Part shown: positions 4,716 through 15,080 of the stretch, one piece after another
Layout: each line of letters begins with the position of its first letter
How positions within the stretch are numbered: position 1 is the stretch's first letter
Origin: a virus
Strand: one strand, 5' to 3'
IMG/VR virus record: IMGVR_UViG_3300048919_000333
Coordinates: 1 to 45,133 of that record
DNA length: 45,133 nucleotides
Notes under the pieces: generated by a model
What the model was told of the DNA's origin: nothing
Databases searched by the model: none
The model's input: the letters and a program-made list of their open reading frames with translations, nothing else
Translations under genes and position numbers: made by a program

Positions 4716-5113
4716 TGGCGGGGCTCCAATGCATATTCAGGAACGTTGAAGAACTGCAGGCGACCCTTCCAAGGCACGAAGGGCATCAGCCTGCTGTCGC
4801 GCAGCACGAAACCGAAGCTACCCTCCTGCTTCCACCTCGAGGTGCTGTGTTCCACACAGTCCACGATGCGAGTCCAGCCCACCAGGCCGCCGCGCGGCAG
4901 ATCTTCATAGGAGGGCAAACCGCCGGCAGGGAGCATGCTGGCGTTGCCCAGCTCCTCGGTGATCTGGTCGTAGTAGGCGCGGGTCATCGTCAGGCCTGCA
5001 TGCACCAGCACCTGACCGCGAAACGGTGTCGCCCAGTCACGGTTCTCGATGTCCTTGTGACCATGGACAATGAGCCAGGCCCAGGGCTGGCGGATGCTGA
5101 GGGCGGGGATCAT
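4712..5113 (-). CDS. ASCH-domain protein
   Basis: 133 aa with the hallmark start ALSIRQPWAWLIVHG and KDIENRDW of the ASCH fold (PUA-related beta-barrel proposed to bind RNA or modified bases), followed by FRGQVLVHAG and a central GLVGWTRIVDCV strand pair. The whole protein is one domain. ASCH proteins occur often in phages and near RNA-modification or co-activator functions, but the substrate here cannot be deduced. It overlaps both neighbours by 4 nt (ATGA), so it is translated coupled to the ParB gene upstream. Confidence 0.85.
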   Translation of the reverse strand: MIPALSIRQPWAWLIVHGHKDIENRDWATPFRGQVLVHAGLTMTRAYYDQITEELGNASMLPAGGLPSYEDLPRGGLVGWTRIVDCVEHSTSRWKQEGSFGFVLRDSRLMPFVPWKGRLQFFNVPEYALEPRQ

Positions 5114-7272
5114 GGCGTGGCCTCCTGGGCTTCGGTATTGATGATTTCCAGCTCGGTGTAGTCGGCGCTCAGGTTCCAGCGTTCGGCTGCGTCCAGGGCG
5201 TGCTCGTCGAGCAGGTCGACCTCGGGGTCAATCGGCAGCTCGATCAGCCACGCGCGATCGCCGAGGCGCTCGGTGACCATGGCCAGGCGGCCGTTGGTGG
5301 GCAGGAGCTTCTTGCCGGGTCCGCGCAGGTCGACGCGGATGCGGACCTGCTGCAGCGGCTTAATAGAGTTGGGCGTGGTGACCTCGGCGGCGGCCATCGC
5401 GTCGGCGATCGCGCGGCTGGCCTCTGCGGCCGTGGCCTTGCCTTTCTTGAGCTTGGGCGTGGCCTTGTCTGTGGGTGCTGCCTTGCCTGCGCGTGCGGCG
5501 GCCTCGGCTTTCATCTCGTCTTGCACTTGGCTTTGGATCGACTCGAGATCCACGTTGGCCAAGTCCACCAAGTCCTCGAGGAGTGGCTCGCCCTGGTCCA
5601 GGCCGAGGGTGCAGCCCATCATGAGCATGTACTGAATCTGCGCAGGCAGATCCTGCTCGGCTAGATCTTCCAGGGCATTCTCGAGGTCCATTTCTGCCTG
5701 ACCATCCTTGCCGTCCACTTGGAACATGCGGTGCAGGAGGCGAGGGGGGGTCTGGACGGCCAGCAGTTTCAGGATTTGGAGGGCAATGCGGCTGGGAATG
5801 TGGTCCAGCCCTTCGGGTGGGCACTGCATAAGCCCGTCAATCGTTGCCTCGGCAGCGCGCTCGCACCAGCGCATGTCGTACTCGCGCTTCAGCGCTTCCC
5901 GCGTGGGCTCGGCCGGCTTCTCGGCCTGGGCCTTGGCTGCAGCCTGGCGCTCGCCCTTGACCTTCACTGCCGCGCTGGCGGCGTGCGTGGGCACGGCCTC
6001 CACCAGGTTGCCGCTGGGCGCCTCGATCAGCACCACGCTCGTCGCCGACACTTCCTGGCCCAGCACCTGACGCACGGGCGCGCTGCTGCCTTGGCTGGGC
6101 TTGTCCAGCAGCAGGTAGCCACGGGGCGCGCCGTTCTCGCTGGGCATGATGTCGCGCGCCTGGCGGCCGGTGATGATCTGCTGGCCGCGCTGCTGGGCCT
6201 GGGCCTTCAGGCGCTCGAAGTGGGCATCCTTCTTTTCTGCGAAGCAGGCGGTATCGGTACAGACGTCTGCATCGTTTTTGTCCCACAGCTCGGGCGACGC
6301 GCCGGTGTGTTTGGGGCAGATCGAGCAGGCTCCGGCGGCAGGGCACAGCGTGGCATCGTCCAGCGCAAAGGGGGCCTGGTCCAGCTTGAGCATGTAGCTG
6401 CGTCGGGCCAGGTCCAGGGCGCTGCGATAGCTCATGGGGCCGCCGTCAGGGCCGCCTGTGAGCACGCGCTTGGTGTACTCGGTCTGGATGGCCTCAGTAG
6501 GGCGCTGGGCCACCAGCAGGGCCACGCTGCGCGTCAGCGTGCGCGCGGCCAGGGCGGCTGTGGCCTCTGGGCACAGCGTGAGCAGGCGCAGCGATTCAAA
6601 GACGTGAGTGCGGCTCTTGTGCAGGGCTTCGGCGGCGCCGTCGATCGAGAGGCCGTGGTCCAGGGTCAGGCGCTGCACGCCCAGCGCCTCCTGCAGGGGC
6701 GTGAGGTCGCTGCGGTGCAGGTTCTCGATCAGCTGCATCAGCAGCGCGTGCATGTTGTCAGCGTCGCGCTCGATGTAGGGCACGGCGCGCAGGCCCGCGA
6801 TCTGGGCGGCGCGGTACCGGCGCTCGCCCGCAATGATTTCGTGCGTGGCGCGGCGCGTGGCTTCGTCCTCGAAGGTGTCCTGCAGGCGCTCGGCCGGCAG
6901 GCGGCGCAGCAGCAGGGGCTGCAGCACGCCGTACAGCTTCATGGTGGCGGCCATGTCGTGCAGCGCGTCGTCCTCGATCACCCTGCGATTCGTGCGGCTG
7001 GGCGCGATCTGGGCGATGGGCAGCGTGGGGTGCACGATCGCCCCGTTGTCAGGGCTGTCCTCGCTCTCGGCCTGCACGACTTCGAAGGCATCCATGGGCA
7101 GGTTGACCAGGCTGTCGCCCACGGCGATCTGGTACTGGCGCCCGCCGGGCGTCTTGCCGATCACCTTGCCGCGTTGGCCGGCCTGGGGGTGCGGCTTGCC
7201 GCCCCTGCCGGTGGCCTCGAGGCTGATCACCACTTCGCGCTGGATCAGCGGGTCTTTGGTCTTTGGTGCCAT
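5110..7272 (-). CDS. ParB/Spo0J-family DNA-binding protein, without a ParA partner
   Basis: 720 aa. The ATG at 7272 is chosen because AAGGAGGT precedes it by 7-8 nt; the frame stays open further upstream but only as antisense-like sequence. Residues about 84-205 form the ParB N-terminal domain: PSRTNRR, YGVLQPLLLRR, IIAGERRYRAA (about 146-156), LIENLHRSDLTPLQEA. A HTH follows (about 208-231). A cysteine cluster (CPAAGACSICPKH, then DVCTDTACF) suggests a metal site as in some plasmid-type ParBs. The Lys/Ala-rich linker and C-terminal domain are unusual in length. With no ParA gene or obvious centromere nearby, a role as transcription or replication regulator is as likely as partition. The palindrome CAGACGTCTG occurs inside the Cys cluster (6260-6269). 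Confidence 0.88.
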   Translation of the reverse strand: MAPKTKDPLIQREVVISLEATGRGGKPHPQAGQRGKVIGKTPGGRQYQIAVGDSLVNLPMDAFEVVQAESEDSPDNGAIVHPTLPIAQIAPSRTNRRVIEDDALHDMAATMKLYGVLQPLLLRRLPAERLQDTFEDEATRRATHEIIAGERRYRAAQIAGLRAVPYIERDADNMHALLMQLIENLHRSDLTPLQEALGVQRLTLDHGLSIDGAAEALHKSRTHVFESLRLLTLCPEATAALAARTLTRSVALLVAQRPTEAIQTEYTKRVLTGGPDGGPMSYRSALDLARRSYMLKLDQAPFALDDATLCPAAGACSICPKHTGASPELWDKNDADVCTDTACFAEKKDAHFERLKAQAQQRGQQIITGRQARDIMPSENGAPRGYLLLDKPSQGSSAPVRQVLGQEVSATSVVLIEAPSGNLVEAVPTHAASAAVKVKGERQAAAKAQAEKPAEPTREALKREYDMRWCERAAEATIDGLMQCPPEGLDHIPSRIALQILKLLAVQTPPRLLHRMFQVDGKDGQAEMDLENALEDLAEQDLPAQIQYMLMMGCTLGLDQGEPLLEDLVDLANVDLESIQSQVQDEMKAEAAARAGKAAPTDKATPKLKKGKATAAEASRAIADAMAAAEVTTPNSIKPLQQVRIRVDLRGPGKKLLPTNGRLAMVTERLGDRAWLIELPIDPEVDLLDEHALDAAERWNLSADYTELEIINTEAQEATP

Positions 7273-7505
7273 CAACGCACCTCCTTGTGCTTGAGCTGGC
7301 GCACGCGCTGCACGGCGATCTCGCGACGCGCGGCGAGCTGGTCGGCAGGCATGGCGCTGAATTTGTCGCAGCGCGAATCGGCGTTGAAGGTGCGGCCCGG
7401 CATCAGGTGCTTGGCGCATTGGGCAAAGCCCAAGCGCACCATGCGCGGGTCGCTGGTGTCAGGCAGCCAGTGCGTGCAGGCCTTGCATGCGGCGGTGCTG
7501 GTCAT
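7272..7505 (-). CDS. Small Cys-containing hypothetical protein
   Basis: 77 aa, not recognised. A CxxC near the N-terminus (C7, C10) with further Cys at about 30 and 46 could bind a metal ion; the C-terminal third is a basic amphipathic helix. The stop overlaps the start of the ParB gene (TGATG), and the final codons (Lys-Glu-Val-Arg) form the ParB ribosome binding site. Its own ATG overlaps the stop of the gene upstream. Confidence 0.7.
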   Translation of the reverse strand: MTSTAACKACTHWLPDTSDPRMVRLGFAQCAKHLMPGRTFNADSRCDKFSAMPADQLAARREIAVQRVRQLKHKEVR

Positions 7506-8252: not shown

Positions 8253-8386
8253 GGCTGCACCCGGATGGCCGATGCGTTGTGCACGCGGTAGAAGCATTGA
8301 GCCAGGGCCACGGCCAGGGCGCCGCTCAGGTAGGCGCCGGTGAAACTGCGGCCGGCAACGCGCACGCGGAAGGTTTTCAGTTCCAT
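8249..8386 (-). CDS. Very small hypothetical protein (45 aa)
   Basis: The frame reads MELKTFRVRVAGRSFTGAY and onward, ending in VQP. GGAGA lies 6 nt upstream of the ATG. It fills the gap between the helicase-like gene, which it overlaps by 10 nt, and the membrane peptide, which it overlaps by 4 nt. This continuous overlap pattern is the main evidence that it is real. No family recognised. Confidence 0.6.
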   Translation of the reverse strand: MELKTFRVRVAGRSFTGAYLSGALAVALAQCFYRVHNASAIRVQP

Positions 8387-9522
8387 GGCTGGTCTCCATG
8401 GGCTGTGGTTTCGCGCTGCGGTGAACGACCTACACTGGCCGAATGTGGATTGGCCGAATTTTGCAAATCAGCGTCGACGGCGAGCAGTTCGTGGTGCGCG
8501 CCACCAGTGGCGGTTTCTGCAACGTCTTTCTGCTTGATCAGCCCTGCGACCAAGTGGCGCTGCAAGTGGGGGACCTCATCAGCGGACGCCTGGATTCCAT
8601 GCTCCATGAGCCACTGGTGCGCCTCAACGACCGAGTAGCTTTCAAAGCCACGGGGAAGCTGGGGGCGGGCAGCCTTGAGCAGGCCCTGCAGCTCATGGGC
8701 TGACCGGCCGAACGGCCCGACAGGCAGGGCGCCACAGCACTGCAGCAGCGTGTACAGGCCGCACATGCGGCCATACCAGTGGTTCCACAGTGGAGAGCCT
8801 TCGGGCAGCCTGTCCAGAGTGCGCTCGGCGCTCCAGATCGTGGCGCTGGCGCGGTTCAGTACTTCGGCCAGCGTGGCTGTGCGAATGGGTGCGGCCTCGG
8901 TCATCGCTGCGGCGGCCCCTTCTGCCAGCGTGCAGCTGGTCAGGAAGGCTGCACTGATGGGGTACTCGCGTAGGTATTGAGCGAACTCCAAATGGCCGTC
9001 GGTCGCCCGCCAGTTGATCAGGGCGCGGTAGAACTCAGGCTCGCGCGGCGGCGCGGTTTCTATGGTGAGAAACTGCGCCGGCGACCAGCCCTGAGTGGAC
9101 TTGTCGCGGCACGCGAACAGCAGGTTCAGGCGATTGGGCTCGGTGCGAGGGGCATGGCCCTTGCGTGTGATGTGCAGGGTGAGTGAATCAAGCAGCAGCG
9201 CCAGGGCCTCATGGGTGGCCTCACCCTGCGGAGCCTTGTCGAACACCACCAGGCGCTTGCCGGCCAGCACTGCGTTGCCGCTGTCCAGCAGCCTTTGCGC
9301 ACTGCCCAGCGAGAGGTAGGCGCTGCCATGGATGCGCGCCATGGTTTCCAGCAGGGTGCCTTGGCCGTTGCCTTGCGGGCCGTGCAGCACCAGGGCCTTG
9401 GTCAATCTGCCAGTGGAATGCTGCAGCGGGTAGGCCAGCCATGACAGCAGCAGGTCGTGGTCGGGGCTGCGGGCGCCGCCCGTGAGGTGGGCCACCAGAT
9501 CGAGGATGGGCTGCACGTTCAT
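8377..9522 (-). CDS. Degenerate SF3/DUF5906-like primase-helicase paralogue (Walker A Lys replaced by Gln)
   Basis: 381 aa. Residues 7-200 parallel the replicative primase-helicase encoded at 13422-15080 in the same phage: LLSWLAYPLQH matches LLRWLAYPLQH, and the order of P-loop, KRLVVFD/KLFVV strand and NLLFACRD/NIAFLSNE strand is kept. The P-loop reads GPQGNGQGT (48-56) where the active protein has GDEGAGKN, so the catalytic Lys is Gln54, and the sensor and arginine-finger region is eroded. It is therefore probably unable to hydrolyse ATP. The frame is intact over its full length and embedded in an overlapping operon, so it is a kept gene, not a pseudogene. A role as regulator or inhibitor of the helicase is inference. 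Confidence 0.8.
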   Translation of the reverse strand: MNVQPILDLVAHLTGGARSPDHDLLLSWLAYPLQHSTGRLTKALVLHGPQGNGQGTLLETMARIHGSAYLSLGSAQRLLDSGNAVLAGKRLVVFDKAPQGEATHEALALLLDSLTLHITRKGHAPRTEPNRLNLLFACRDKSTQGWSPAQFLTIETAPPREPEFYRALINWRATDGHLEFAQYLREYPISAAFLTSCTLAEGAAAAMTEAAPIRTATLAEVLNRASATIWSAERTLDRLPEGSPLWNHWYGRMCGLYTLLQCCGALPVGPFGRSAHELQGLLKAARPQLPRGFESYSVVEAHQWLMEHGIQASADEVPHLQRHLVAGLIKQKDVAETATGGAHHELLAVDADLQNSANPHSASVGRSPQRETTAHGDQPWN

Positions 9523-9749
9523 GCCGCACCCCGCATTTCAGCGCCCGTCAGCACGGCACCGGCAGCATCGGCCGCAGCCTGGGCGCGCGTGACATCTACG
9601 ACCAGGCGGGTGACGTCCAGCTGGCCACGCAGCTTCTTCAGCAGGCGGCCGACGTCAGTTTCTTGATGGGGATCGTTCTCGAAGCCGGCGATGAACTGCT
9701 CGGCTTCCTGCAGCGCTTCATGGAGCGCCAGAAGAGGGGCAAGGGACAT
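9519..9749 (-). CDS. Small helical hypothetical protein, first gene of the leftward operon
   Basis: 76 aa, almost entirely helix-forming (LLALHEALQEAEQFIAGFE, then a basic helix, then an Ala-rich C-terminus). GGAGG stands 4-5 nt before the ATG. It is the promoter-proximal gene: the leader from the predicted start near 9777 is about 28 nt. First products of such operons are often antiterminators or takeover proteins, but no N-like arginine-rich motif is evident and the family is not recognised. Confidence 0.7.
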   Translation of the reverse strand: MSLAPLLALHEALQEAEQFIAGFENDPHQETDVGRLLKKLRGQLDVTRLVVDVTRAQAAADAAGAVLTGAEMRGAA

Positions 9750-9783
9750 GGAACCTCCAGCACCCGGGATGGGTGTGGAGGCG

Positions 9784-9812
9784 ATTATTTCCCCTGTGGG
9801 TAAACTTGTCTA
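9784..9812 (-). promoter_or_regulatory. Leftward early promoter (PL-like)
   Basis: On the minus strand TAGACA (9812-9807), a 17-bp spacer and AATAAT (9789-9784): five of six matches to consensus in each element with ideal spacing. One operator fills the spacer (9789-9803) and another overlaps the -35 (9812-9826), so repressor binding would block RNA polymerase directly. Confidence 0.85.
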
Positions 9813-9858
9813 TACCCTTTGGGGAATGTTTTGGCCTTCTTTTCAGCCCTGTGGGGAA
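9789..9858. promoter_or_regulatory. OL-like operator cluster (three sites)
   Basis: Three copies of a 15-bp dyad, ideal form TTCCCC-n3-GGGGAA: 9789-9803 (TTCCCC TGT GGGTAA), 9812-9826 (ATACCC TTT GGGGAA) and 9844-9858 (CAGCCC TGT GGGGAA). Centres are 23 and 32 bp apart. The third lies within the last codons of the rex-position gene. The same dyad forms a second cluster of three at 10822-10883. Confidence 0.82.
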
Positions 9859-10322
9859 TTTTTTTCTGCCCGGGCGGCCGTTCTTACTGTGGCGTCACTC
9901 AGGTCCGCCAGCATGAGACTCATCTCTTTCCCCACTCTGGCGAACACAAACACCAACACGCTGCCGGCGATGCCGCCTAGTGCGGCGGGAAATCCCGCAC
10001 GCATGGATAGCGACAAACCTCCCAGCAGAATGATGACGGCCAGGACGATCCCGCACCAGTAAAGTAGGTTGGCCACCGCTCTAAATGTTGGGTAGATGCT
10101 TTCGCCGCGCAGAGTCTCCACAAACTCCGCTGGGTCGGCGTCGTTGACAGTGGATGTGGCGCGCGGATACGCCTGCGAAACGGGGTCGGCTCGCAGCGGC
10201 GCCTGGCTTTTAGCCGCTGCCTCCACCTTGCTGTAGATCGCGCCACAGTGCGGGCAGGCCTGGGTTGTTGCTGGGTCGATGGACGCGGTGTGCCCGCACT
10301 TCAGACATTGCTTTGAGATCAC
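9843..10322 (-). CDS. Zinc-ribbon, two-TM membrane protein in the rex position
   Basis: 159 aa. Four cysteines (C6, C9, C23, C26 in CLKCGH and CPHCG) form an N-terminal zinc ribbon, followed by a polar linker, two membrane helices (about 82-103 and 110-129) and a cytoplasmic tail. The start is GTG with GGAGG 7 nt upstream. It lies directly downstream of the repressor gene in the same direction and ends inside the left operator cluster, the place of rexAB in lambda, so it is probably expressed in the lysogen. Superinfection exclusion is a reasonable but unproven guess; many zinc-ribbon/TM proteins of this layout are housekeeping or unknown. Confidence 0.75.
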   Translation of the reverse strand: MISKQCLKCGHTASIDPATTQACPHCGAIYSKVEAAAKSQAPLRADPVSQAYPRATSTVNDADPAEFVETLRGESIYPTFRAVANLLYWCGIVLAVIILLGGLSLSMRAGFPAALGGIAGSVLVFVFARVGKEMSLMLADLSDATVRTAARAEKNSPQG

Positions 10323-10382
10323 CTGACAACCTCCTCCCGGGTTCGTTGCTTGAAGATGTAAATCTTGGCCGTTTGGCGCTGT

Positions 10383-10808
10383 TTAGGCAGCGCTTCTATC
10401 GCTTTTCTTGAGGGCATCTGCCTCTCGCGTCTCCACTACAGCTTGCACGGTTGCGTTCAGGCGTATCCAGTCCTCCCGTGTTAGAGCGTCCAACCTCGCG
10501 CGGGAAATGGAAAAGGGCCAATCAGCCGGCGCTGGGGGGGCTGAGCCCTGGGCCTGTGTGTGGGAGTGGGCGTTGTCCATCCAGCCGACTTCGAGCAGGA
10601 GTTTCTCCTCCATCTCGCGCGCCATAGGGCTGCCCATGTTGTATGGCTTGCCCCCTCGATCGTGCCTGACATTCGCATTGAGGATGCGGGTCAGGGTTGC
10701 CGTCTCGTTTCGGGCGTAGCCCAGCTTCTCACAAAGGTTTGCCATCCCGCTGTGCTGGTCGACCAGAGCCTGTAGGTTCGCTCGCCTAATTTCTTCAACT
10801 GTTCGCAT
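10383..10808 (-). CDS. Phage repressor (CI position), short form without peptidase domain
   Basis: 141 aa. The first 85 residues are a HTH DNA-binding domain: RRANLQALVDQHSG, NLCEKLGYA, ATLTRILN, AREMEEKLLL, and the closing GWMD that is common in this class of phage repressor. The C-terminal part after an Ala/Pro linker is a short helical segment (WPFSISRARLDAL); there is no S24 Ser-Lys peptidase fold, so RecA-stimulated self-cleavage is not expected. The ATG at 10808 is chosen because the operators begin 14 bp upstream; the frame remains open through the operators but that cannot be coding. It faces the Cro-like gene across the operators. Confidence 0.8.
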   Translation of the reverse strand: MRTVEEIRRANLQALVDQHSGMANLCEKLGYARNETATLTRILNANVRHDRGGKPYNMGSPMAREMEEKLLLEVGWMDNAHSHTQAQGSAPPAPADWPFSISRARLDALTREDWIRLNATVQAVVETREADALKKSDRSAA

Positions 10809-10821
10809 CCGGGCGATTGCA

Positions 10822-10883
10822 CTGTCCAAAGGGGAAAAAGAAAATTCCCCGTTGGGTCTTGCGTAACTTTCCCCATTGGGGAA
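10822..10883. promoter_or_regulatory. OR-like operator cluster (three sites)
   Basis: Dyads at 10822-10836 (CTGTCC AAA GGGGAA), 10845-10859 (TTCCCC GTT GGGTCT) and 10869-10883 (TTCCCC ATT GGGGAA, a perfect palindrome around 3 bp). Centres are spaced 23 and 24 bp, just over two helical turns. They lie between divergent repressor and Cro-like genes. The perfect site sits on the rightward promoter; the weakest lies nearest the repressor gene, as OR3 does in lambda. Confidence 0.88.
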
Positions 10884-10887
10884 TAAA
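10859..10887 (+). promoter_or_regulatory. Rightward early promoter (PR-like)
   Basis: TTGCGT (10859-10864), a 17-bp spacer and AATAAA (10882-10887). The match to consensus is only moderate, but the geometry copies the leftward promoter: an operator within the spacer reaching the -10 and a second reaching the -35. The expected start lies at about 10894-10896, immediately before the ATG at 10897. Confidence 0.6.
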
Positions 10888-10896
10888 ATGCGCCTC

Positions 10897-11169
10897 ATGG
10901 AGCTACTCAAAACTTGGTTGACCGGCGGGAGAGGCCGATGCGCAGGGCTTGCGCGTCACCTCAACGTCTCGCCCTCGTTCGTGAACAAGATGGCGAATGG
11001 CGAGCGGCCGATCCCCGCCGAACATGGCGCTGACATTGAGAAGTTCACTCAGGGCGCTGTTACGCGCTCCGCGATGTTTCCCCAGGGTTGGCAGCGCATA
11101 TGGCCAGAGATGGTGCATGACCATGAGGGCACGCTGCATTCCTGCCATCAAGGAGGAGGCCATGCATAG
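10897..11169 (+). CDS. Cro/YdaS-type transcriptional regulator
   Basis: 90 aa. MELLKTWLTGGRGRCAGLA then HLNVSPSFVNKMANGERPIP is a compact HTH (recognition helix about 25-36); the C-terminal AVTRSAMFPQGWQRIWPE matches the tail common in YdaS/Cro-like regulators of Burkholderiales phages. The ATG at 10897 gives the usual N-terminus for the family. An in-frame ATG at 10888 exists but would lie upstream of the predicted transcription start. The chosen start has no Shine-Dalgarno sequence and may be leaderless. Expected to act at the same operators as the repressor to favour lytic growth. Confidence 0.82.
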   Translation: MELLKTWLTGGRGRCAGLARHLNVSPSFVNKMANGERPIPAEHGADIEKFTQGAVTRSAMFPQGWQRIWPEMVHDHEGTLHSCHQGGGHA

Positions 11170-11404
11170 CGCTATTAGCCGCCGACGCGCGTTACTGGGC
11201 CTCTTTGCTGTCCCATGGTTTGGACAAAGCAAGGTCGCGCCGCAGGCGCCAAGCCACCCCCTGGTTTTTCTGTCACGCGAGCTGCAACCGCTGTTGTTTG
11301 CGCTTGGCGACGAGCGGGTCTCCGTGGATGGCTTGGAGACACGTTGGCGCAAATGGTGCGCTACGCGGCAGATCCACCCACAGCCGCCCCATGCAGGCCG
11401 GTGA
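11162..11404 (+). CDS. Small hypothetical protein after cro-like gene
   Basis: 80 aa. AAGGAGGAGG directly precedes the ATG, which overlaps the end of the Cro-like gene by 8 nt. The N-terminus SRRRALLGLFAVPWFGQ combines a basic stretch with a short hydrophobic run, like a weak signal or membrane anchor; the rest is polar and basic. Family not recognised. Its 3' end overlaps a convergent gene by 44 nt, so one of the two may be less certain. Confidence 0.6.
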   Translation: MHSAISRRRALLGLFAVPWFGQSKVAPQAPSHPLVFLSRELQPLLFALGDERVSVDGLETRWRKWCATRQIHPQPPHAGR

Positions 11405-11603
11405 GCAATGTGGCTGTGGCCATGTCCCCTTCTTTTTCTGCTGCAGCGCCAAAGGTGGCCAGCGCCTCTGCGAAGCGTTGTTGCCCGGCTGCCGGCATGT
11501 GCTCCACAGCCAGCATGGTCAGCGCGCCGAGCGCCGCCTCGATGGCGCTGATGCGCTGCAGCGCTTCCTCGAGCCGTTGGTGAAGGTGGGTGTCTGTCGG
11601 CAT
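11361..11603 (-). CDS. Small coiled-coil hypothetical protein, opposite to the early rightward operon
   Basis: 80 aa. GGGAGG lies 8 nt before the ATG. Helical protein: LHQRLEEALQRISAIEAALGAL suggests a coiled coil, followed by an Ala-rich helical region. It runs against transcription from the rightward promoter, so expression would be favoured in the lysogen. Upstream on its strand lie two large palindromes (11760-11796, 11908-11944), which may hold its promoter. No family recognised. Confidence 0.55.
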   Translation of the reverse strand: MPTDTHLHQRLEEALQRISAIEAALGALTMLAVEHMPAAGQQRFAEALATFGAAAEKEGDMATATLLTGLHGAAVGGSAA

Positions 11604-11759
11604 ATGGATTTCCTCCCGTTTCGTAGTTGCCTGGGGTGGTGCATTTCCCCAGCGCATTTTCCGCCGCGCGCTCCATGCGGACCGTGGCGGCTTTTTGTTG
11701 CGAGGGTTCGGTGCGTTGGTTCATGCATCGAAGTCTCCCGGTATTGCCTGGCTGAGTCA

Positions 11760-11796
11760 TTCCGACGCGTTCCGAATTTTTCGGAACGCGTCGGAA
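11760..11796. repeat. 37-bp perfect palindrome, copy 1
   Basis: Arms TTCCGACGCGTTCCGAA and its exact complement around spacer TTT. Each arm itself carries TTCCGA twice at 10-bp spacing. The arms are identical to those of the second copy; only the spacer differs (TTT versus AAA). Confidence 0.9.
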
Positions 11797-11907: not shown

Positions 11908-11944
11908 TTCCGACGCGTTCCGAAAAATTCGGAACGCGTCGGAA
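11908..11944. repeat. 37-bp perfect palindrome, copy 2
   Basis: The same 17-bp arms around spacer AAA, so the copy is the reverse complement of copy 1. The two copies are separated by 111 bp with no clear gene and lie between divergently oriented genes (start codons at 11603 and 11976). Operator for a multimeric regulator, or the ends of a small palindromic element. Confidence 0.9.
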
Positions 11945-11975: not shown

Positions 11976-12359
11976 ATGGACCCAGCACTCAATTACGACG
12001 ATGAGCTGGAGGCTGCCAAGGATGCTGTGAAGTACCTGGGTGGCCCGAAGAAGGTGGGCGAACTGCTGTTCCCCGAGAAGCAGCCTGACGCGGCGGCGCG
12101 CTATCTGCTGGATGCGCTGAACCCGGCCCGGGCCGAGCGGCTGAGCCCGGGCCAGTTGCTGCTGCTGATGCGCAAGTGCTGCGAGATCGGCTTTCACGGC
12201 CTGACCGCCTATCTGCTGCATGAGGCAGGCTACGCGCCGCCCATGCCGCTGGACCCTGTGACCGAGGCCACGAAGCTGACGCGCGAGCTGGAGCGCACGG
12301 TGGGCCATGCGTCGCTGCTGGTGGCACGCCTGGAGCGGCTGAAAGAGGGCAGGGCGTGA
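11976..12359 (+). CDS. CII-position phage regulatory-like protein
   Basis: 127 aa. The central region AKDAVKYLGGPKKVGELLF, then ARYLLDALNPARAERLSPGQLLLLMRKC, resembles the HTH of phage regulatory CII/CP76-type proteins of Proteobacteria, which monitor or set early transcription; the similarity is from memory of the family pattern and moderate. The C-terminus is a helical tail. GGAGGT is 8 nt before the ATG. It follows the double palindrome and precedes the primase gene, whose ATG overlaps its stop (TGATG). Confidence 0.6.
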   Translation: MDPALNYDDELEAAKDAVKYLGGPKKVGELLFPEKQPDAAARYLLDALNPARAERLSPGQLLLLMRKCCEIGFHGLTAYLLHEAGYAPPMPLDPVTEATKLTRELERTVGHASLLVARLERLKEGRA

Positions 12360-13429
12360 TGGACAACTACCAGAGCGTGCTGCACCAGATGGAGCATTTC
12401 GGCATCGCGCTGCGCGACCGGGATCGGCGTGATCTGCCCGAGAGGATCAGGGCAGGGCGCAAGACGACCTGTGGTGCCGGCGGCAAGGATTGGTACAAGC
12501 TGCACCTGTGGCAGCCGGACGCCGGCGGCACGTATGTGGTCGGCTCGTTCGGCACCTATCGGCACGGCGGCGATTGGCAGAAGGTGGAGATTGACCTGGC
12601 GCCGCTGTCCGAGGCCGAGCGCGCCCGCCAGGCGGCGCACCGCAAGGCGCTGGCCGAGGCTGCGGCGATCGAGCGTGCTGCCGAGATCGCCAATGCAATG
12701 GCCGAGGCCATCGATATCTGGCGCAAGGGCGTGCGCGCTGCCACCACGCCGTACCTGGGCCGCAAGCAGGTGCAGGGCGAGGCCTTCCGCGCGCTGGACC
12801 GCCAGCTGTCGCTGCGCTGGCCTGCCCGTAAGCGTGGTGATGAAGATGTGGTGGTGCGCCTGCCAGCCGGCACCACGCTGCTGCCCCTGGTGCGGCCGGA
12901 TCTGCCGCGTGACCAGGCGCTGCGCGGCCTGCAGTTCATCAAGCCGGACGGGATGAAGATCTACCTGCGGGCCTTCGACAAGCCGGGCTGCTGCATCCGC
13001 CTCGGCGAGATCGACGCCGGCAGCACCGCGCTGCTGATGGTGGTGGAGGGCTACGCCACGGGCCTGACTGCCCGCATGGCGGTCGATCACCAGCATCCCG
13101 TGTTTGTGGCCCTGGACGCCGGCAACCTGGCCGAGGTGGTACGCGTGCTGCGCGGCCTGTACCCGGCCACGCGCATCCTGATCCTGGCCGATGACGACTA
13201 CATGACCCGGGACAAGCGCACTGGCGCGCTGATCAACCCGGGCCGCACGGCCGCTGCCCGCGCCGCCAAGGCCACGGACGGCTGCGATCTGGTCTGGCCC
13301 ATCTTCAAGGCCTCGACACGGGGGCCGAAGGATACCGACTTCAATGATCTGCACGTCCTCGAGGGCCTGGACGTGGTGCGCCGGCAGCTGGTGGGCGTGG
13401 TCGAGGCGATGGCGAGGCGCTATGGCTGA
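12359..13429 (+). CDS. Toprim-domain DNA primase-like protein
   Basis: 356 aa. The C-terminal half is a Toprim fold: LLMVVEGYATGL with metal-binding Glu230, ILILADDD (Asp278-280), then NPGRTAAARAA and KDTDFNDLH. The N-terminal part, with GGKDWYKLHLW and a helical Ala/Glu-rich linker, fits an RNA-primer synthesis partner but lacks an obvious zinc ribbon. It would make primers for phage replication together with the helicase gene that follows; the two genes overlap by 8 nt. A GTG at 12356 is also in frame. Confidence 0.85.
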   Translation: MDNYQSVLHQMEHFGIALRDRDRRDLPERIRAGRKTTCGAGGKDWYKLHLWQPDAGGTYVVGSFGTYRHGGDWQKVEIDLAPLSEAERARQAAHRKALAEAAAIERAAEIANAMAEAIDIWRKGVRAATTPYLGRKQVQGEAFRALDRQLSLRWPARKRGDEDVVVRLPAGTTLLPLVRPDLPRDQALRGLQFIKPDGMKIYLRAFDKPGCCIRLGEIDAGSTALLMVVEGYATGLTARMAVDHQHPVFVALDAGNLAEVVRVLRGLYPATRILILADDDYMTRDKRTGALINPGRTAAARAAKATDGCDLVWPIFKASTRGPKDTDFNDLHVLEGLDVVRRQLVGVVEAMARRYG

Positions 13430-15080
13430 GCACACCGACGATATCGACGTCGGCGGGGCCTCGTTCCCGCCTCTGCCGCCACCGCATGCGACCGAAGAGT
13501 CGCATGCTTCGTCGGCTCTCGGCGCGCCAGCGCCGCTGGATAACTCTGTCGTGCACGTCGACTTTCAGTCGGGTGTGCGCGTGCCGCCGGGCGAGGCGCA
13601 GGCCGAGCCATCTCGTTCGTCGCCCCCCCGCCCCCCCAAAGTGAGCGCAGCTGCGCGCGACTCTGGGGATGGGGGTGGCAAGGCCCCTGCGGACAAGGCC
13701 GATCCGCCGGTGCAGGGCAAGAAAAAAGAGAAGACGGTCGATTGGGGGAAGTTCAACCACCTGGCCGAGAACTTCGTGCTGATCTACGGCACGGACACCG
13801 TATGGGATGGTGCCGAGCGGATGATCATGAAGATCGCCAACATGGGCCACGCCCACGGCGCCGAAATGGTCCGCATGTGGAAGGCCAATGAGAAGCGCAA
13901 GACGGTGCGGCTGGAGGACGTGGTCTTCGATCCGACGATGAAGGCCGACCCGGTCACCACGGTGAATCTGTTCGACGGCATGGCCATGGTTCCCGAGGCC
14001 GGCGACGTGACCCCCATGCTGGAGCTGATCTCCTACCTGACCAGCCGTGCCACGCCAGATGAGGCCGACACCGGCGACATCATGCATTGGCTGCTGCGCT
14101 GGTTGGCATACCCGCTGCAGCACCCGGGCGCCAAGCTGCGCACGGCCGTGGTGATGCACGGCGACGAAGGCGCGGGCAAGAACTTTCTGTTCGACATCAT
14201 GGTCGCCATCTACGGCAAGTACGGCGCGCTGGTGGGGCAGGATGAGCTGGAGGACAAGTTCAACGACTGGCGCAGCTGCAAGCTGTTCGTTGTGGGCGAC
14301 GAAGTGTCGAGCCGGGCCGAGCTGGTCCACAACAAGAACCGGCTGAAGGCGCTGATCACCTCGCCGACCGTGCAGATCAATCCCAAGAATCTGACGCGGC
14401 GCGAGGAGAAGAACCACATGAACATCGCGTTCCTGTCGAACGAGCTGCAGCCGCTCGCCCTGGACAACTCGGACCGGCGCTATCTGGTGGTGTACACGCC
14501 CCGGGCCAAGGATATCGAGTACTACAAGAAGCTGGGCGAGTGGCGCGACAACGGGGGCGTGGCCGCGTTCTACGACTACCTGCTCAAGTACCCGCTGGGG
14601 GACTTCCACCCCTACGCCCCCGCCCCCATGACGGAAGCCAAGACTGCGCTGATCGAGATCAACCGCAAGAGCCCGGAGATCTTCTGGAGCGAGTGGCAGG
14701 CCGGCGAGCTGGACCTGCCCTACAACGCCTGCGCCGTCAGCCAGGCCTATGCCGCCTACCTCAAGTGGTGCCAGCGATCCGGCGATCGCTACCCCGAGAA
14801 GCAAACGCGCTTCACCCCAATGGTCCTGCGTTTCTCTGAGGGGCAGGGGTGCCCGGCACGGGTCAAGCCAATGAATGTCACGCGGCCTGGTGCCGCGAAG
14901 AAGACCGAGCGAATGTTCTTGGTGACCGATCCGATTCTGGGCGAGGGCGACCAGCGCATGACAGAGGGCGAGTGGGCCACCACTGCGGTGCGTGACTTCG
15001 GCGATGCACTGCGCAAGTACATGGGATACGGCAGCGGCGCCCCCTCCCCCGAAGGGCATGAGCCAGAGGGAGGTCAGTGA
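13422..15080 (+). CDS. SF3-type phage primase-helicase (DUF5906-like)
   Basis: 552 aa. A disordered acidic/Pro-rich N-terminus (1-100) precedes a helicase domain: P-loop HGDEGAGKNFLF with Lys253, KLFVVGDEVSS (Walker B region), MNIAFLSNELQPL (motif C, Asn sensor) and DRRYLVV (arginine finger region). Such proteins unwind DNA as hexamers at the phage origin. The start ATG at 13422 lies inside the end of the primase gene; the upstream extension is a shadow of that gene. A degenerate relative lies on the other strand at 8377-9522. Confidence 0.88.
   Translation: MAEHTDDIDVGGASFPPLPPPHATEESHASSALGAPAPLDNSVVHVDFQSGVRVPPGEAQAEPSRSSPPRPPKVSAAARDSGDGGGKAPADKADPPVQGKKKEKTVDWGKFNHLAENFVLIYGTDTVWDGAERMIMKIANMGHAHGAEMVRMWKANEKRKTVRLEDVVFDPTMKADPVTTVNLFDGMAMVPEAGDVTPMLELISYLTSRATPDEADTGDIMHWLLRWLAYPLQHPGAKLRTAVVMHGDEGAGKNFLFDIMVAIYGKYGALVGQDELEDKFNDWRSCKLFVVGDEVSSRAELVHNKNRLKALITSPTVQINPKNLTRREEKNHMNIAFLSNELQPLALDNSDRRYLVVYTPRAKDIEYYKKLGEWRDNGGVAAFYDYLLKYPLGDFHPYAPAPMTEAKTALIEINRKSPEIFWSEWQAGELDLPYNACAVSQAYAAYLKWCQRSGDRYPEKQTRFTPMVLRFSEGQGCPARVKPMNVTRPGAAKKTERMFLVTDPILGEGDQRMTEGEWATTAVRDFGDALRKYMGYGSGAPSPEGHEPEGGQ

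Follow-up and report, generated by a model that had tools for sequence, protein, structure and literature searches.

A putative OL/OR immunity switch built on TTCCCC-N3-GGGGAA dyads in a temperate phage, and a wing residue that may set operator specificity in its repressor family

Six 15-bp dyads of the TTCCCC-N3-GGGGAA type lie in two clusters of the window (the whole 45,133-base IMG/VR virus record analysed here, which carries integrase, terminase and other temperate-phage genes) and are, as a whole, best explained as the OL/OR operators of an immunity switch of lambda-like logic bound by a 141-aa repressor, a reading to which we assign a probability of roughly 0.88. A preliminary description of this DNA had placed two clusters of three dyads around a repressor/rex-position module, and our scan of the window recovered all six at the proposed positions (OL: 9789-9858; OR: 10822-10883). 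On the left, OL1 (9789-9803; TTCCCCTGTGGGTAA) lies inside the spacer of the promoter PL and at the edge of its -10 element, followed by OL2 (9812-9826; ATACCCTTTGGGGAA) and OL3 (9844-9858; CAGCCCTGTGGGGAA). On the right, OR3 (10822-10836) sits between the -35 and -10 elements of PRM with its centre 21 nt before the repressor AUG, OR2 (10845-10859) is centred 44 nt before the same AUG, and OR1 (10869-10883) falls within the PR spacer. An intact TTCCCC (or GGGGAA) half is present in 6/6 dyads, and the other half ranges from perfect (10869) to GGACAG (10822); the arms of OR1 pair with 0 mismatches, as expected from the perfect palindrome claimed for one OR site. Measured between centres, the spacing is 24 and 23 bp at OR, which agrees with the regular 23-24 bp interval described there, and 23 and 32 bp at OL.

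The bare 3-mismatch motif was not enriched window-wide (23 matches vs. 21.4 expected). Under a stricter site definition (one half 6/6 and at least 9/12 overall), the window holds 8 sites, 6 of which fall within the two intergenic regions; three sites within 80 bp occurred in 0/300 dinucleotide shuffles of the window, and local shuffles reached three sites in 0/5000 cases for OL and 1/5000 for OR. The significance of the dyads rests on their clustering and not on overall motif frequency. We also considered an N1 dyad centre, a reading that makes each site two bases shorter, and kept N3, the three central bases being variable between sites. When dyads were sought de novo under only loose limits on spacing, N1 was best in 28 and N3 in 18 of 51 regions, with a script that reports the smaller gap on ties and in which N1 scores at least as high as N3; the N3 register is our own choice. 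Among the literature matches listed, which covered neither most subscription papers nor the original KS9 gp41 and SPC32H papers, there was no TTCCCC-type operator.

PL (minus strand, 9784-9812) was the sole promoter-like site found in 9400-11400, with a -35 TAGACA (9812-9807), a 17-bp spacer that encloses OL1, and a -10 AATAAT (9789-9784), giving 10/12 consensus matches. PR (plus strand, 10859-10889) has the -35 TTGCGT (10859-10864) and two candidate -10 elements, namely AATAAA (10882-10887) with a 17-bp spacer, or TAAAAT (10884-10889) with a 19-bp spacer and 7 nt before the AUG at 10897. Because a TAAAAT/TACAAT -10 fits the relatives, four of which (L118, L120, L124, L127) have TACAAT at this place, we consider the 19-bp reading over TAAAAT the more likely. 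Both early promoters had been described earlier as sharing one geometry, with an operator inside a 17-bp spacer and another at the -35. The operator placement stands, the second operator (OL2 or OR2) overlapping the -35 by one base at both PL and PR; the 17-bp spacer is possible at PR, but the relatives favour 19 bp. For PRM, the -10 TGCAAT (minus strand, 10816-10821) lies 7 nt before the repressor AUG and the -35, TTTTCT, is poor. We predict a leaderless repressor mRNA, with the transcripts of both repressor and cro beginning at the AUG or right beside it. Across the family, 47/55 loci have a T..AAT hexamer ending 6-7 nt upstream of the repressor AUG, and 2/55 a Shine-Dalgarno-like string; TA...T ends 6-7 nt before the script-called Cro start in 51/85 loci (Shine-Dalgarno-like string, 2/85), a count in which the script halted at an upstream ATG in the window, L003, L118, L120 and L127, where the ATG that follows would fit, at a distance of 7 nt. 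In CP-933P, paaR2 has been assayed for leaderless translation (PMC8630535).

The perfect inverted repeat of OR1 and the intergenic location of the dyads would also suit RNA hairpins, i.e., terminators or leader structures and not operators. However, the dyads lie in or upstream of promoters and before the predicted transcript starts, their loops are just 3 bases long and variable, no terminator-like site was called at them, and their sequence tracks a residue of the DNA-binding domain across the repressor family (see below), so that we regard hairpins as very improbable and treat the dyads as operators in what follows.

The repressor gene (minus strand, 10383-10808) encodes a protein with a putative recognition helix at about residues 33-43 and a wing residue, H49. 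It matches phrog_12107 (E 5.7e-15), aligns with KS9 gp41 and with the N-terminal half of SfV-type CI proteins, and carries in its N-terminal domain an IRR.N ... AR.IE ... GWMD signature that forms conserved columns in the family alignments. No Pfam family was matched at E up to 1, and a peptidase (S24) domain was not detected in the 141 residues. The family profile matched PDB entry 5d50, whose sequence is SPC32H Rep, at E 1.9e-8; an AlphaFold model of the repressor (mean pLDDT 77.7) superposed on 5d50 with Z 10.6 and 2.1 Å over 74 residues (next entry, Z 6.9), for which the Foldseek E-value was weak (3.6e-3). The fold matches cover mainly residues 1-87. Residues 84-94 of the model have low confidence and residues 103-140 are mostly helical, and the last 45 residues carry no domain assignment; a candidate p53-like tetramerization element at the C-terminus was considered, by eye only. 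Membership of the lambda CI family was rejected, as no self-cleaving C-terminal domain was found in this short protein (no Pfam match), which by these matches is of the KS9 gp41/SPC32H Rep type. None of the 596 open frames of the window encodes an Ant-like protein, and the exact LexA box CTGT-N8-ACAG was not found in the window. Gifsy repressors stay uncleaved on induction and are inactivated by antirepressors, as far as the accessible text of PMC3121763 reports.

Opposite the repressor, a 90-aa Cro-like protein had been proposed; its start is most likely 10897 (plus strand, 10897-11169; from the ATG further upstream, at 10888, the protein would have 93 aa), and it was identified as a YdaS-family protein through Pfam YdaS_toxin (PF15943; 48.1 bits, cut-off 30) and PDB 8c7k (E 8.6e-10) / 8co2. 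The rex-position gene (minus strand, 9843-10322) encodes a zinc-ribbon and membrane protein of up to 159 aa with a sub-threshold match to DUF4282 (23.9 bits); a RexAB identity was rejected, no Rex family being among its Pfam and PHROG matches up to E 1. Varied small membrane or secreted proteins occupy this slot behind the repressor in related loci (window 9843-10322, L013 3001-3459, L015 3001-4060, L124 7758-8267, L127 6226-6858), among them proteins with a zinc ribbon plus membrane segment, DUF4124 and others, and it is possible that the slot holds cargo expressed in lysogens. The first gene of the PL operon (minus strand, 9519-9749; 76 aa) has GGAGG in its leader. Farther along, the left operon includes a DUF5906/primase-helicase-like protein (minus strand, 8377-9522), with a short DNA stretch from its region recurring in the right-arm ORF 13344-15080 on the plus strand (14090-14122, 85%), and a large ParB-like protein (minus strand, 5110-7419); in KS9, too, this side carries a partition gene. 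At the left end of the record, a tRNA (45-115) adjoins the integrase (295-1509; phrog_1), and this is a likely attachment site.

Two records, L003 and L006, encode repressors 86 and 85% identical to that of the window and keep all six dyads as well as PL. Between the window and L003, 0/72 arm bases changed vs. 32/158 loop and flank bases (one-sided Fisher P 2e-6); the arms of OL1 and OL3, for instance, are the same, whereas the loop of OL3 differs. A third record, L013, has a rex-position protein 67% identical to that of the window and retains the leader of PL together with the first gene on the left. Its repressor is a Pfam HTH_3 protein outside the family (hhalign probability 3.3%), and where the window has its dyads L013 has ATCCA-N3-TGGAT, here too within the spacer of a PL at the same position. 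This is a swap of the immunity module.

Downstream of cro, on the opposite strand, the small helical-looking ORF 11361-11657 (minus strand) recurs in L013, L015 and L124; its 81-aa form had no PHROG match at E 0.01, and its location and length would be compatible with an antirepressor or with an accessory protein of replication. Between this ORF and the divergent ORF 11976-12359 (plus strand) sit two perfect 37-nt inverted repeats (11760-11796 and 11908-11944), 148 bp apart, with 17-nt arms (TTCCGACGCGTTCCGAA) and a 3-nt centre. A related single copy is present in L003, L013 and L015; since L013 keeps it despite having another immunity repressor, a backbone protein probably reads this repeat.

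We also scanned the viral collection by DNA alone, for TTCCCC-N3-GGGGAA together with a second half-conserved dyad. This motif-only scan returned 13 stretches, 10 of which, from nine contigs, carry this repressor family, and 3 of which were counted as artefacts (L125 and L126, with two neighbouring repeats 17 bp apart, and L129, a low-complexity sequence). Five of the nine contigs were already known from the repressor search, three being L003-type and two L006-type (L119, L122, L123, L128, L130), and four were new (L118, L120, L121/L127, L124). The repressors of the new contigs share an LG.AR...LTRI.NAN.RH-like segment; the OL pair lies 24-25 bp apart in L118, L120, L121 and L124, and OR3 is degenerate or absent in L124 and L127. 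The OL-OR centre distance, 1080 bp in the window, is 1095, 1186 and 1723 bp in L118, L124 and L120, respectively. A DNA search of the phage collection gave no match, nor did searches of genome contigs with the repressor and with alignment A4.

The repressor relatives comprise 97 entries with 78 distinct N-termini, plus 52 held-out distinct N-termini, and their usual half-site is TTAGCG/TTAGCC. Layout was counted over the 83 loci in which a triple of N3 dyads was accepted. The OR2 centre lies 43-44 nt and the OR3 centre 19-21 nt from the repressor AUG, in 75/83 loci each. OR1 and OR2 are 23-26 bp apart in 61 loci; in the other 22 the distance is 31-35 bp, longer by roughly one helical turn. As the search preset the OR spacings at 22-36 and 22-25 bp, these spacing counts are not independent evidence, the distance to the AUG being the one quantity left free. 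Downstream of the repressor start, 55/83 scanned loci have a further pair of such dyads, vs. 0/819 permuted half-site scans. SfV-, LPPA33-, EPP1- and L112-type members have TGTACC-N5-GGTACA dyads, on which the N3 search fails. The recognition segment of the TTCCCC class is four residues longer than that of most TTAGCG/TTAGCC members and two residues longer than that of the nearest TTAGCG group (L036, L037, L163-L166). The TTCCCC clade (7 rows, well supported) is nested inside a well-supported, otherwise TTAGCG-type clade, so that TTCCCC is a derived specificity, accompanied by the longer segment. The window holds a new specificity class of a known switch type, not a new type. The preliminary description had the architecture of lambda immunity apparently rebuilt with different proteins and sites; an OL/OR arrangement with a non-lambda repressor and Cro is borne out by conservation, the L013 swap, motif-only retrieval and the family layout, but "rebuilt" was too strong a word for one specificity class of the existing TTAGCG/TTAGCC family.

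For covariation, 7 of the 78 distinct N-termini were dropped (the SfV, LPPA33, EPP1 and L112 types together with Chronis, L113 and L115). In the 71 rows left, an unsupervised mutual-information ranking placed the column of H49 first for base 6 of the half-site (0.95 of 1.05 bits), and with sequence weighting this column reached 0.89 of 1.00 bit, the next one 0.41. Asp or Glu goes with G, and His or Asn with C, in 67/67 discovery rows having D/E/H/N and C/G; residue 49 differs within each of the ten closest opposite pairs listed. The held-out set consisted of loci fetched afterwards, from which 17/52 rows were dropped (operator score <28); 4 of the 35 left had neither D/E nor H/N. All 31 testable rows obeyed D/E with G and H/N with not-G (11 and 20; Fisher 1.2e-8), and the original form, H/N with C, held in 17/20, three N rows having T. 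Rows without D/E/H/N at this position were L036 (Ala, G), L101 (Gln, T), L163-L165 (Gly, G) and L208 (Lys, C); an Acinetobacter protein (Acin) has a gap there with base A, and L103 has Asp with an A/G tie. Few of the changes are phylogenetically independent: a careful tree has 3 changes of the base and 3 of the residue, with 3/3 independent pairs concordant (sign test p 0.25), and a larger quick tree gave 8 and 7 changes with only 2 well-supported pairs (median p 0.5). We hold with moderate confidence that a single wing residue, 49, may set the base pair beside the operator's central three, Asp/Glu selecting G, as in TTAGCG, and His/Asn a base other than G, as in TTAGCC and TTCCCC, that the TTCCCC class adds a longer segment to this, and that few changes could move phages between immunity groups with layout and leaderless mRNAs fixed. 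If true, nature would provide a series of orthogonal repressor-operator pairs.

The same data bear on the proposal that the dyads are operators of the YdaS-type Cro only, the 141-aa protein binding elsewhere or regulating otherwise. Cro proteins of TTCCCC systems do share a distinctive segment (.PSFV.KM), and YdaS footprints overlap repressor footprints in CP-933P, in the part of PMC8630535 available. Yet it is the repressor whose sequence follows base 6 (0.89 bit), whereas Cro hardly does (best Cro column, 0.29 bit) and was rejected as the covarying partner, and it is the repressor family that the motif-only scan retrieves; a Cro-only role is improbable, and operators read by the repressor are preferred.

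Computation shows the sites and how they are conserved, as well as the swap and the covariation. We infer repressor binding, occupancy order, PRM activation and OL-OR looping, the lambda-like logic (cooperativity, PRM activation, looping) being read from geometry only. The 141-aa repressor would bind the dyads as a dimer, with specificity coming from its recognition helix and wing residue 49. At OR1 and OL1 it would cover the PR and PL spacers and block both promoters; at OR2, about -44 of PRM, it would be placed to activate its own promoter, a location close to the class II activator position; and at OR3, over PRM, it would shut PRM off. With only a weak OR3, or none, in L124 and L127, control through OR3 may not be general. 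Cro, of the YdaS type, probably occupies these operators in the reverse order, and OL-OR looping over the 1080 bp is possible. The TTCCCC class would have arisen inside the TTAGCG-type family together with its longer recognition segment. A plain double-sided repressor could instead act on these operators by non-lambda logic that involves neither PRM activation nor OL-OR looping. Such an arrangement suits a short protein with no C-terminal domain assigned and the dispensability of OR3 in L124 and L127, but is harder to square with OR2 at 43-44 nt from the AUG in 75/83 loci and a second cluster in 55/83, with the tetrameric state of the solved relative RepSPC32H (PMC9986798, in the portion available), or with PaaR2, which the accessible sections of PMC8630535 report to octamerize and to raise PRM. 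We regard this simpler logic as possible although rather unlikely, and retain the lambda-like scheme.

Lambda-type immunity is known in detail from a few enterobacterial phages, and a parallel switch family, large but little studied, is now described over more than 80 loci. It offers a residue-level specificity rule that is quickly testable, with natural repressor-operator pairs that look orthogonal, and it corrects annotation, in that KS9-type repressors and "YdaS toxins" belong to a defined OL/OR switch.

Lambda has three operators on each side of its repressor and accessory gene, with PL and PR directed outward, OR2 near -42 of PRM, a leaderless repressor mRNA and 17-bp sites. The window shares with it three operators at each of the early promoters that flank the repressor and accessory gene, the outward direction of PL and PR, a similar OR2 position and a predicted leaderless repressor mRNA, and differs from it in its unrelated half-site, 15-bp sites, YdaS-type Cro, lack of rexAB and lack of a detectable RecA-cleavable domain. 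Burkholderia phage KS9 (gp41/gp42; L022, L038) is like the window in having a repressor of the same family, 133 aa long in KS9, a YdaS-type Cro and three N3 dyads, in KS9 at 25 and 24 bp, but has the half-site TTAGCG, D at the wing position and a recognition segment four residues shorter. In the Salmonella phage SPC32H, Rep (PDB 5d50, 5d4z) has a homologous N-terminal domain, and 15-bp dyads also precede rep, though of the form TTACC-N5-GGTAA; unlike the window repressor, Rep is 198 aa long, with further C-terminal domains that bind the antirepressor Ant. The nearest experimentally studied switch is that of CP-933P (PaaR2/YdaS/YdaT, E. coli O157:H7), whose PaaR2 N-domain has a weak sequence match to the window repressor family (E 0.0089; fold Z 5.9). 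As far as the available part of its description goes (PMC8630535), CP-933P differs from the window in its half-site (GTTTAGTAA), in its 18-bp palindromes with four inverted repeats and in a toxin-antitoxin pair at the rex position. Like the window, it has a CI-like repressor facing a Cro of the YdaS type, PRM and PR covered by several dyads at equal spacing, and a PL with three further operators; within the same portion of that report, PRM and PR are overlapped by the footprints of both PaaR2 and YdaS, PaaR2 acts positively on PRM and negatively on PR, and PL is repressed by either protein (PMC8630535).
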